A stretch of DNA of 64,000 bases from Euryarchaeota archaeon (GTDB taxonomy: Archaea > Thermoplasmatota > SW-10-69-26 > JACQPN01): the NCBI GenBank assembly GCA_016207515.1, contig JACQPN010000010.1:1-64000 (forward strand), read 5' to 3'. Under the pieces are notes generated by a model. The model worked only from the letters and a program-made list of their open reading frames with translations, was not told the DNA's origin and ran no database searches. Both the position numbers and the translations under genes were made by a program. Shown here piece by piece: positions 56,653-59,334 of the stretch (positions are counted from its first letter, which is position 1; every line of letters starts with the position of its first letter).

Positions 56653-56857
56653 ACGCCGGGCCGGCATCCATGTGAAACCCGTCCGTTCTTGAAATGGCCA
56701 TCGTGGCAGAAGAAAGACAGGCCCCGTTGACGCCGGGTCAATGGCCGCCGACTCCGTGCATTCGCTTGGTAGATCGGCTGCCTCACTCATCGCCTTCGAT
56801 GACGTCGCCTTCGGCTCCGTCATCTCGTCCACTGCTTGGGGACACTAGGGGACGCAG

Positions 56858-56953
56858 TGGAGTCGTCGGGATCTGATTCGGGTGACTCCCTCCGGTCGTC
56901 ACCCTCTCAAATCCCGACTTCGTCCATTCGCGACCTCGCTCACGCTCGGTCGC
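56858..56953 (-). repeat. Structured tRNA-Ala trailer: hairpin, antisense copy and second sense copy of the tRNA 3' end
   Basis: Reading the minus strand downstream of tRNA-Ala: a hairpin (arms 56948-56953 and 56930-56935), then an antisense copy of the tRNA 3' end (56925-56907), a 7-base-pair hairpin (56904-56898 with 56886-56880), and a sense copy of the tRNA 3' end (56876-56858). The antisense segment can pair either with the mature tRNA 3' end or with the distal copy. The mature 3' end and the distal copy are 99 bases apart. The two sense copies differ at a few positions. No CDS is present. Confidence 0.7.
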
Positions 56954-56956
56954 TCA

Positions 56957-57028
56957 TGGACTCGTCGGGATTTGAACCCGAGGCCTCTCCCATGCCAAGG
57001 GAGCGATCTACCGCTGATCTACGAGCCC
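56957..57028 (-). tRNA. tRNA-Ala (GGC)
   Basis: 72 bases fold as a cloverleaf on the minus strand. Acceptor GGGCTCG pairs with CGAGTCC (one G-U), discriminator A. The anticodon stem CTCCC/GGGAG encloses TTGGCAT, giving anticodon GGC for alanine codon GCC. The T arm is TCGGG-TTCAAAT-CCCGA. No CCA is encoded and no intron is seen. Both ends are also part of strong alternative inverted repeats (56930-56976 and 57022-57055), an unusual situation described as a finding. Confidence 0.93.
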
Positions 57029-57110
57029 AAATCGCGTGCGCGCGATTTGGGCTCGGAGACGAGATGACGAGGCGCCCGAGGGCGCCGAAGTCATCGAAGT
57101 CTACGAGCCC
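57022..57110 (-). repeat. Structured tRNA-Ala leader: antisense and second sense copy of the tRNA 5' end
   Basis: A perfect 15-base inverted repeat (57022-57036 and 57041-57055, loop of four) includes the first seven bases of the mature tRNA. A second, longer interrupted hairpin (57049-57110; paired blocks of 6, 4, 6 and 7 bases) uses the same antisense strand. Its far arm, 57100-57110, is an exact 11-base copy of the tRNA 5' end (TCTACGAGCCC on the plus strand). The arrangement mirrors that on the 3' side. Confidence 0.7.
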
Positions 57111-57233
57111 GGCTTTGGGGAGCCGAAACCGCGCGACGAGCGATATTGGTGACCGGGCCACGTTTGAAGCGCCCTGGCTGGTTCGCCAAAGCCAGCGCTG
57201 GTTAATAAAAGTGAGCCATTGGCGTCTTGGCGC

Positions 57234-58910
57234 TCAGACGCGGCGGCGAGGGCGCGTCAAGGCCACGGCGACGGCGGCCAGAGAGAGGAGAGGTAGCTCC
57301 AAGCCGGGAACCCGCGCAGGTTGATCCCCTTGCGTGAGCGGCGCGATTTCGCCGATCGGCGACGGAAGAGGTGTTCCCTGCGCGACGTTCAAGGTGAGCA
57401 ACCTCGGCGCGTTCACGTCGTTTCCGAAGTATGCGGGGGTCGCATCGTCGTGGATCGATATCGGGTCGGCCTGAAGGTAGTATTCGCCGCCCGCGGGGAA
57501 CGTGACGTTGATCAGGAACTTGCCGTCCGCGTGAGTGTGGACCTTGTGGGTAAGTATGGGGGCCCCGCCTTTCGAGGCGAAGAACTGGAAATCGACTTCC
57601 GCATGCTGGAACGGGAGGTCGCCAAGTAGGTGCGCGAAGAACTCAAGGCTTTGGGGCGTTCCCGATTTCAGTTGGTCTGTGCCTGACGTCTCAAGGAAGA
57701 CCGGGCCGCTGTTAGGCGAAACCGGGCTTCCGTTCGGCGCCCCGAGAGCCCCGCCGGCGAGGATGAACGCCGGGTTAGGGGGGAGAATCCGGTACATGAA
57801 AGTCGCGTGGCCGGCCCACGTGCCGCGTTTGGCGCTGACTTCCATCCGATAGTCGCCCGGCTGCTTGTTGAGTGCCAGTATTTCGAGGATCCCATCGTAC
57901 TCGTGCAGGCTCGAACTCTTGAAAACGACGGCACCGGTCGGGTCTACGAGGCTCGCCTCGAAGTTCACATGCTGGAGCGTCTCCATCATCTCGGGGTCAT
58001 AGACGACTGCGGAAAGTCGCATCGGGCCGAAGACGCCATCAGTCACGTCCGGGTCGTATGTCGCGAAGAGGTCGTACGCGGGCCCTTCCGCGGCGGCGTG
58101 GCCGGGGTCGTCTTGCTCGGTCGGCGCTTCGGATGTGCGGGTCGCTCCCGTCGCGCCAGAACGCACGTTCGGTGGGTCCACCGTCACCTTGTGTTCGTGC
58201 GAGAAAGCGCGGAACGCGGGCGAATCCGGCGTCGGATACGCGTTGTATGCGACGAACCGGACCGAGAATTCGCCCGTCTCCGGGAAGACAAAGCCGAAGC
58301 TCTGTGGGTCCGCATGGGTGTGCGTGTGCGTCCGGAAGATGAGCTGGTCGTCGCGAAGGCGCCTGATCTCGACGTTCACGTCCGTGTGGTCCAGCATCTC
58401 GCCCTCCGCGTTCTCGATGTAATACGAAAACTCGGCCGGCTCGCCGACCGCAACGCTTCCCGGCGCCTTCACGAGTTTCAGACTCGGCGAAAGATAGGAG
58501 GTCGCTTCGACCGCCGTCCCGTTGAAATAGGACACTAGAAGTCCTTCGCTCGTCGGGACCTCCGCTATCACCTGGTACGGGCCCGGCACGGGGAAAACGA
58601 TCTCCACGTTGTTCACACCGTCGTAATCGTGGGCGGAAACGGTCTCGTAAAGTACCACGGCGTTTTGCACGATCGTGACCTTCGCGTTGTGGTGGCGCGA
58701 GGGGAGCCCGTCCTTTCCAAGGAGGAGGAAACCAAAGTGGCTCACGTCCCCGACGAGCGCGTAGCCGTCGGGCTGGACGTCATGCGTCACGAACAACATG
58801 CCTTTGCTCATGTCGTGCTCGTGATCGGCCTGGGCGTTTGCAAGCGGCCCGCCGATGACGACGAGCGATAACACCAACACTAGCGCACGGTTCGTCAAGC
58901 CCTTTTCCAC
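57234..58910 (-). CDS. Secreted surface protein with C-terminal membrane anchor
   Basis: 558 residues from a GTG at 58910, which sits at the predicted transcript start of the TATA box at 58933-58940; a TTG at 58898 after GGAAAAGGG is an alternative. A signal peptide ends LANAQA. The mature part has several beta-sandwich regions with His-rich strands: DHEHDMSKGML, a THTHTHAD stretch, and KVHTHADGKFLINVTFPAGG, suggesting metal binding. The C-terminus is VPGLELPLLSLAAVAVALTR followed by basic residues, an archaeal cell-surface anchor of the archaeosortase-like style, though no classic PGF motif is seen. T-rich CTTTTATT follows the stop at about 57202-57211 and may terminate it. Confidence 0.75.
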   Translation of the reverse strand: MEKGLTNRALVLVLSLVVIGGPLANAQADHEHDMSKGMLFVTHDVQPDGYALVGDVSHFGFLLLGKDGLPSRHHNAKVTIVQNAVVLYETVSAHDYDGVNNVEIVFPVPGPYQVIAEVPTSEGLLVSYFNGTAVEATSYLSPSLKLVKAPGSVAVGEPAEFSYYIENAEGEMLDHTDVNVEIRRLRDDQLIFRTHTHTHADPQSFGFVFPETGEFSVRFVAYNAYPTPDSPAFRAFSHEHKVTVDPPNVRSGATGATRTSEAPTEQDDPGHAAAEGPAYDLFATYDPDVTDGVFGPMRLSAVVYDPEMMETLQHVNFEASLVDPTGAVVFKSSSLHEYDGILEILALNKQPGDYRMEVSAKRGTWAGHATFMYRILPPNPAFILAGGALGAPNGSPVSPNSGPVFLETSGTDQLKSGTPQSLEFFAHLLGDLPFQHAEVDFQFFASKGGAPILTHKVHTHADGKFLINVTFPAGGEYYLQADPISIHDDATPAYFGNDVNAPRLLTLNVAQGTPLPSPIGEIAPLTQGDQPARVPGLELPLLSLAAVAVALTRPRRRV

Positions 58911-59165: not shown

Positions 59166-59260
59166 GGGCCCAGCCGGGTTTTCGCTGGACTCGCCCCGGC
59201 TCGTCCGCTTGGAATCCAGCTGGTCCCATGAAGCGCCATTCGCTACGCTCATGGCTTTCA
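59166..59260 (-). repeat. Structured trailer of the CAT-anticodon tRNA
   Basis: Same order as at tRNA-Ala, on the minus strand: a hairpin (59260-59229; about nine base pairs), an antisense copy of the tRNA 3' end (59227-59211), an inner stem (GGAC...GTCC), then a sense copy of the tRNA 3' end (59182-59166, CCCGGCTGGGCCC). The distal copy lies 96 bases from the mature end. The hairpin loop TCGCTACGCTC (plus strand) closely matches TCGCTCACGCTC at tRNA-Ala, and both sit between CCATTCGC and GCTCATGG blocks. Confidence 0.7.
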
Positions 59261-59334
59261 TGGGCCCAGCCGGATTTGAACCGGCGACCAATCGGTTATG
59301 AGCCGAACGCTCCACCGGACTAAGCTATGGGCCC
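59261..59334 (-). tRNA. tRNA with CAT anticodon (elongator Met or Ile2)
   Basis: 74 bases on the minus strand. Acceptor GGGCCCA pairs perfectly with TGGGCCC, discriminator A. The anticodon loop is CTCATAA with anticodon CAT, and the T arm is GCCGG-TTCAAAT-CCGGC. It does not start with the AGCGGG typical of archaeal initiator tRNA, so it is elongator Met or the Ile2 species whose C34 is modified to agmatidine. Sequence alone does not separate these. No CCA or intron is encoded. Confidence 0.9.

Follow-up and report, generated by a model that had tools for sequence, protein, structure and literature searches.

To my knowledge, the repeats of the tyrT gene of E. coli have been known for decades and have no accepted origin. 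Rfam assigns the trailers of tyrT and tyrV and those of the Lys genes (lysT/W/Y/Z/Q and lysV) to the RtT family (RF00391), and the E. coli units score 133-138 bits against this model. For comparison, I took 53 tRNA genes of E. coli K-12 from annotated regions. It was found that the tyrT and tyrV trailers contain an inverted copy (GGGGAAGGATGAGAAGCTTCGA), a copy of the T-arm, hairpins including GAGCGCCAGCGAG, and then AATCCTTCCCCCACCACCA, which is the exact 3′ end of tRNA-Tyr. The Lys trailers likewise contain displaced 3′ ends of their tRNAs. On the 5′ side, a copy of the own end was found at none of the 53 genes. The trailers of argQ, argZ, and argV (locus L238) carry a displaced tRNA-Arg 3′ end of 18-19 nt together with GA-flanked hairpins, and Rfam makes no RtT call there. 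The attC sites of integrons and the ends of IS200/IS605-type elements are folded, strand-specific DNA hairpins whose structure is kept more than their sequence.

PMC4986893, citing Bosl and Kersten (1991), describes RtT as an RNA that is freed from the transcript of tyrT and is tied to amino-acid limitation. Tyrosine recombinases integrate at the loops of tRNA genes and thereby displace tRNA ends (PMC8371274, PMC9897764). In archaea, targeting of the 5′ half of a tRNA has been described for pTN3-like integrases only (PMC8371274). Human Pol theta performs stem-loop synthesis in vitro (PMC11292364), and mini-hairpins of the d(GCGAAGC) type are unusually stable (Hirao et al. 1994, as cited in PMC11292364).

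The window, which is the whole stretch of 64,000 nucleotides analysed here, comes from an archaeal genome (archaeal by rRNA; 2.67 Mb in 25 contigs, with 52 tRNA matches; referred to as G000). An Rfam scan of the window found tRNA only, the other matches being weak. The tRNA-Ala(GGC) gene lies on the minus strand at 56957-57028 (ARAGORN; 66.5 bits with the Rfam tRNA model) and anchors a unit on each of its flanks. On the 3′ side, a spacer hairpin of the GA/GA type (56930-56953, minus strand, that is, the tRNA-sense and outward strand) is followed by an inverted copy of the tRNA 3′ end at 56907-56926 on the minus strand, whose core at 56907-56918 is complementary at 12/12 positions. Next comes the core hairpin GGGTGAC-GA-CC-GGA-GG-GA-GTCACCC (56880-56904, minus strand), an identical 24 nt of which was found upstream of a tRNA-Gln gene on contig C18. 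Beyond this hairpin lies a displaced direct copy of the tRNA 3′ end (56858-56876, minus strand), which begins at tRNA position 55 and is 89% identical (17/19) to 56957-56975. A further, decayed unit at 56748-56824 on the minus strand probably remains from the same side, with a GA hairpin at 56798-56824 and a stretch resembling the inverted copy at 56748-56765.

The 5′ flank has the same parts in mirror image. The spacer hairpin AAATCGCG-tgcg-CGCGATTT (57029-57048, plus strand) runs without interruption into the tRNA 5′ end on one side and into an inverted copy of this end (57049-57060, plus strand) on the other. A core hairpin with GA/GAA loops follows at 57063-57095 on the plus strand, which is opposite to the tRNA and is again the outward strand, and then a displaced 11-nt copy of the tRNA 5′ end at 57100-57110 on the minus strand. 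This copy is exact, as TCTACGAGCCC occurs at both 57018-57028 and 57100-57110. The repeats listed in the preliminary description, among them the exact copy of the 5′ end, were all found at the positions given there, and its mirror-image arrangement proved correct: the antisense and second sense copies of the 3′ end, the perfect 15-nt inverted repeat that takes in the first seven tRNA bases (57022-57036/57041-57055, extending to 19 nt at 95%), and the hairpin at 57049-57110, whose 62 nt form 23 pairs on folding. Just beyond the upstream unit, there is another imperfect inverted repeat (57111-57124/57180-57193), and a TATA-like stretch is found near 57198-57206, about 170 nt from the tRNA-Ala gene.

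The preliminary description did not mention the second tRNA gene of the window, tRNA-Met(CAT) (59261-59334, minus strand), which also has a downstream unit of the tRNA-Ala kind. All of its elements are on the minus strand: a GA/GA-type spacer hairpin (59235-59255), an inverted copy of its own 3′ end (59205-59228, +33 to +56), a core hairpin GCGGAC-GA-GCCGGGGC-GA-GTCC identified by folding (59184-59208), and a displaced direct copy of its 3′ end (59166-59181, +80 to +95).

Is this common among the tRNA genes of this archaeon? The flanks of 51 tRNA genes were compared with their own ends, the ends of the other tRNAs serving as the control. A copy of the own 3′ end was found within 250-300 nt downstream of 23-24 of the 51 genes (control, 4-9%), and an inverted copy of it downstream of 10 genes (control, 5%). 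A direct copy of the own 5′ end lies upstream of 10/51 genes (control, 1.3%). With a stricter cut-off, the numbers for the direct 3′, direct 5′, and inverted 3′ copies are 23, 10, and 9 of 51. The reverse combinations, that is, 5′ ends downstream and 3′ ends upstream, were not enriched at the 51 genes. GA-type hairpins are similarly concentrated: of the six in the 64-kb window, five lie beside its two tRNA genes, and 36 of the 44 in 457 kb of the genome (sequence picked around tRNA genes) are within 300 nt of a tRNA. As the hairpin scan was devised after viewing the window, the hairpins of the window itself are not independent evidence, while those of the other tRNA genes are. The own-versus-other-tRNA controls at 51 genes and the clustering of hairpins in the window exclude chance; the arrangement around tRNA-Ala is far beyond it.

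From either tRNA end outward, the unit consists of the end itself (X), a spacer, the reverse complement of X, a hairpin, and a displaced copy (X′), all within about 75-120 nt and without genes. Where both copies occur near the tRNA, the inverted one usually precedes the direct one, and several trailers (tRNA-Val, tRNA-Met, and tRNA-Ala) have a spacer that itself forms a hairpin. The core hairpins are built alike: an outer stem leads to a 2x2 internal loop, either GA/GA or GA/GAA, beyond which come a short inner stem, in many cases GC, and a terminal loop mostly of three or four residues. The outer boundary of the copies coincides with the mature tRNA ends, and their inner boundary is also restricted: in six genomes, 53 of the 72 direct 3′ copies begin at tRNA positions 55-60, in the T-loop, with a mode at 57, and the 5′ copies mostly end in the D-arm (nt 11-13 or 23-25), a few of them in the anticodon loop (33-34). 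Units may be tandem. The tRNA-Gln(TTG) gene has five upstream copies of its 5′ end, mostly about 75 nt apart, and the tRNA-Ser(TGA) and tRNA-Val(CAC) genes each have three downstream 3′ copies. In such arrays, the arms and spacers are nearly constant and the hairpins vary. Between the tandem units of tRNA-Ser(TGA), 5/8 pairs are changed on both sides and none is broken; in those of a tRNA-Arg gene of another genome (G005), 9/19 pairs are changed on both sides and three are mismatched in one unit. The tRNA-Ala(TGC) gene, which is inside an rRNA operon (locus L004, G000:C22:192384-192455), has a leader unit like that of the tRNA-Ala gene in the window; the two leaders have identical arms, and their hairpins differ by paired changes. 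The evidence of paired changes is limited to flank-aligned tandem units and these two leaders, since the scan itself requires pairing and covariation across all scanned hairpins was therefore left out. Within these limits, the hairpin stems do show paired changes.

About 55 nt, a GA hairpin among them, interrupt the 5′ part of one tRNA-like gene with a long variable arm (L085, 4837-4990, minus strand of contig C12); this may be an insertion caught within a tRNA or an intron-like insert. On the same contig, several tRNA-like genes whose variable arms are long and whose anticodons are odd (CAT, CCT, and GAA) are clustered at 162822-168594.

The orientation of the hairpins is striking. Of the GA-form hairpins no more than 120 nt from a tRNA gene, 32 are read outward and one inward (19:1 downstream and 13:0 upstream), and in three other genomes (G004, G005, and G010) the near hairpins are outward in 7/7 cases. 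The outward strand was the more stable one in 44/44 near outward hairpins, as expected for GA loops compared with TC loops. Downstream of a tRNA, this strand has the sense of the tRNA; upstream, it is opposite to the transcript. It is chiefly this mirror polarity that argues for a DNA-level process and against an evolved pre-tRNA switch.

Next, the distribution in relatives was assessed. Copies of the own 3′ end are found downstream of 12/27 tRNA genes in G005, 11/23 in G032, 6/31 in G004, and 5/30 in G010, and of none of the few genes sampled in G001 and G002; inverted copies are likewise frequent in G005 (10/27) and G032 (10/23). The same unit plan is present in G005, G032, G010, and G004 with hairpins that differ between genomes; it extends to other families of the phylum, whose hairpins are different. 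In G005, most 3′ copies are 15-19 nt long, and in many cases the 5′ strand of the T-arm has been copied ahead of them, a hairpin pair thereby interrupting the displaced T-loop, and some upstream copies are split in the D-loop by hairpin pairs. The tRNA-Ala(GGC) genes of the same-order genomes G001-G004 are without direct end copies, that of G004 having only a 12-nt inverted match downstream, while several tRNA-Ala(GGC) genes in other families do have direct end copies. The exact hairpin pattern was found among 293 genomes of the phylum only in G000 and in one isolated match; among named bacterial and archaeal genomes in one unrelated bacterium, probably by chance; and in no viral contig. The inverted T-arm pattern was found in only G005 and one other of 283 genomes; therefore, there is no simple phylum-wide sequence signature. 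No empty site could be demonstrated by comparison within family f12, and no description of such units in archaea was found in the literature. Thus, comparison with relatives divided the earlier expectation: the exact hairpin is missing from those sampled, and the plan recurs at other tRNAs and in other families. A one-off insertion scar, which had been the fallback reading, is ruled out by this recurrence, and the tRNA-Ala flanks are no conserved switch of tRNA-Ala either.

The preliminary description had offered a folding switch or processing signal on the one hand and the scar of tRNA-targeting elements on the other. The former belongs to a wider possibility, that the units serve as leader and trailer structures of the pre-tRNA, or as small RNAs released from these, and are held by selection on RNA folding or processing. 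This seems fairly unlikely. In its favor, RtT is such a released RNA (PMC4986893), the hairpins are maintained by paired changes, and the leader unit of tRNA-Ala(TGC) is within the rRNA operon, so it is probably transcribed. In addition, the equilibrium fold predicts the competition for the acceptor strands that had been proposed for the tRNA-Ala precursor, with mutually exclusive folds: the pair probability of the acceptor is 1.0 for the tRNA alone, about 0.3 with the trailer only, and 0 with the full leader, whose antisense arm and spacer are predicted to capture the 5′ strand. The distal 5′ copy could, in such a model, compete for the antisense arm during transcription. The competition holds as a prediction of the equilibrium fold; as an RNA switch, it conflicts with the 5′-side units, in 13/13 of which it is the opposite strand that carries the stable GA form. 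Moreover, the transcribed-strand structure is not conserved at the tRNA-Ala(GGC) homologues of G001-G004, where tRNA-Ala lacks direct end copies, and the units are at about half of the tRNAs under no visible rule. A selected switch is unlikely because of this opposite-strand polarity on the 5′ side and the patchy distribution, and the idea of a scar of tRNA-targeting elements fits much better.

What kind of event on DNA might be responsible? A purely mutational origin, in which a 3′ end folds back at the edge of the tRNA during replication or repair, is extended into a reverse copy of the tRNA end, and after a second turn at a stable mini-hairpin is extended into a forward copy, without any dedicated element, would generate tRNA-specific arms alternating as X, reverse complement, and X′, and outward polarity would follow from 3′-end growth. 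The in vitro stem-loop synthesis by human Pol theta (PMC11292364) and the exceptional stability of d(GCGAAGC)-type mini-hairpins (Hirao et al. 1994, through its citation in PMC11292364) are in its favor. I nevertheless regard it as distinctly unlikely, since it leaves unexplained the common GA hairpin plan within one genome, the non-templated GATGAGAA in three lineages, and the stop of the copies at the mature tRNA ends. Very unlikely is the repeated integration and loss of elements whose tyrosine recombinases target tRNA loops. Such integration displaces tRNA ends, usually by crossover in a tRNA loop (PMC8371274; PMC9897764), and the displaced end in the window matches the tRNA end (89%) and breaks off within a tRNA loop; of the five integrase genes of the genome, four are within about 300 bp of a tRNA gene (tyrosine-recombinase genes at C13:3905, C5:81089, C18:3277, and C25:338297), as in integrated elements. 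These genes are located elsewhere than the window tRNA-Ala unit, however, and instead of an integrase element only 80-100 nt lie between this tRNA and its displaced end. Gene-free units of about 75-120 nt with an inverted copy of the tRNA end are foreign to attachment sites, about half of the tRNAs with their differing sequences would require many integrase specificities, and archaeal targeting of the 5′ half is described only for the pTN3-like integrases (PMC8371274).

The reading I tentatively prefer, at somewhat short of an even chance, is that both tRNA-Ala flanks belong to a single kind of repeat, which is specific to tRNA ends, arises at the DNA level, and is added outward from the mature ends. 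It is supported by the copies of own ends (24/51 and 10/51 against 9% and 1.3%), by the 32:1 outward polarity of GA hairpins on both sides and 7/7 in three other genomes, and by the breakpoints, 53/72 of which are at positions 55-60 while the copies stop at the mature ends. Support also comes from the tandem units, which keep their arms and spacers while the hairpins vary by paired changes, from the recurrence of the plan in G005, G032, G010, G004, and E. coli tyrT/tyrV, and from the GA hairpin interrupting the 5′ part of the tRNA-like gene L085. The unit may be a folded single-strand DNA site, the GA-looped hairpins and arms of the outward strand forming a stable hairpin. A recombination, insertion, or fold-back activity would use this hairpin and add units beside tRNA genes while an intact tRNA is retained. 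Displaced ends and tandem arrays would be the products of this addition, and the competing folds of the pre-tRNA would be incidental to it. Such a repeat would account for most of the facts. Against it, no enzyme and no autonomous copy were found, Y1 transposase (PF01797) being absent from the genome, no empty site could be demonstrated, and the exact hairpin is lineage-specific. Furthermore, GATGAGAA replaces the templated GATTCGAA in E. coli Tyr, in G005, and in tRNA-Ser(TGA) of G000, and this recurrence points to selection on a fold, which on the 3′ side may be that of an RNA.

That this plan recurs at about half of the tRNA genes in one archaeon, on both sides and mirrored, suggests that RNA alone does not give the full account; it also cautions against taking every genomic tRNA fragment for an integration scar. 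The units of this genome may be the products of an unrecognised tRNA-seeking DNA process. The origin of such repeats becomes testable: the units are expected to come and go beside tRNA genes and to need an activity that recognises tRNA gene ends. It is a bolder and somewhat unlikely proposal that unrecognised, tRNA-gene-seeking units of single-strand-folded DNA with tRNA-specific arms build outward from either mature end of tRNA genes in both archaea and bacteria, RtT being one lineage of them.

How do these units compare with the known systems? Like the attL and attR sites of tyrosine recombinases, they place a displaced tRNA end beside an intact tRNA, with breakpoints at the cloverleaf loops; unlike them, they have no element genes between the copies, include an inverted copy, and are found at many tRNAs per genome. 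By analogy, they resemble integron attC sites and IS200/IS605-type ends as folded, strand-specific DNA hairpins kept in structure more than in sequence and occurring in tandem arrays, whereas their arms are specific to the adjoining tRNA. A non-autonomous hairpin element of the IS200/IS605 type would find no Y1 transposase in the genome to mobilise it. The RtT model had no match in 56700-57300 of the window up to E=5, nor at the archaeal loci tested, and since the tested units do not match the Rfam model, they are not classed as RtT. In other respects, the two agree. Downstream units, tandem or single, close with the tRNA 3′ end copied exactly from the T-loop onward, and the inverted copy, the T-arm copy, the GA-flanked hairpins, and the GATGAGAA replacement are also present in tyrT/tyrV. 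The E. coli units are restricted to few tRNAs and to the 3′ side, while the archaeal units are at about half of the tRNAs, on both sides with mirror polarity, and often have a single GA hairpin. The archaeal units resemble RtT and may work like RtT.
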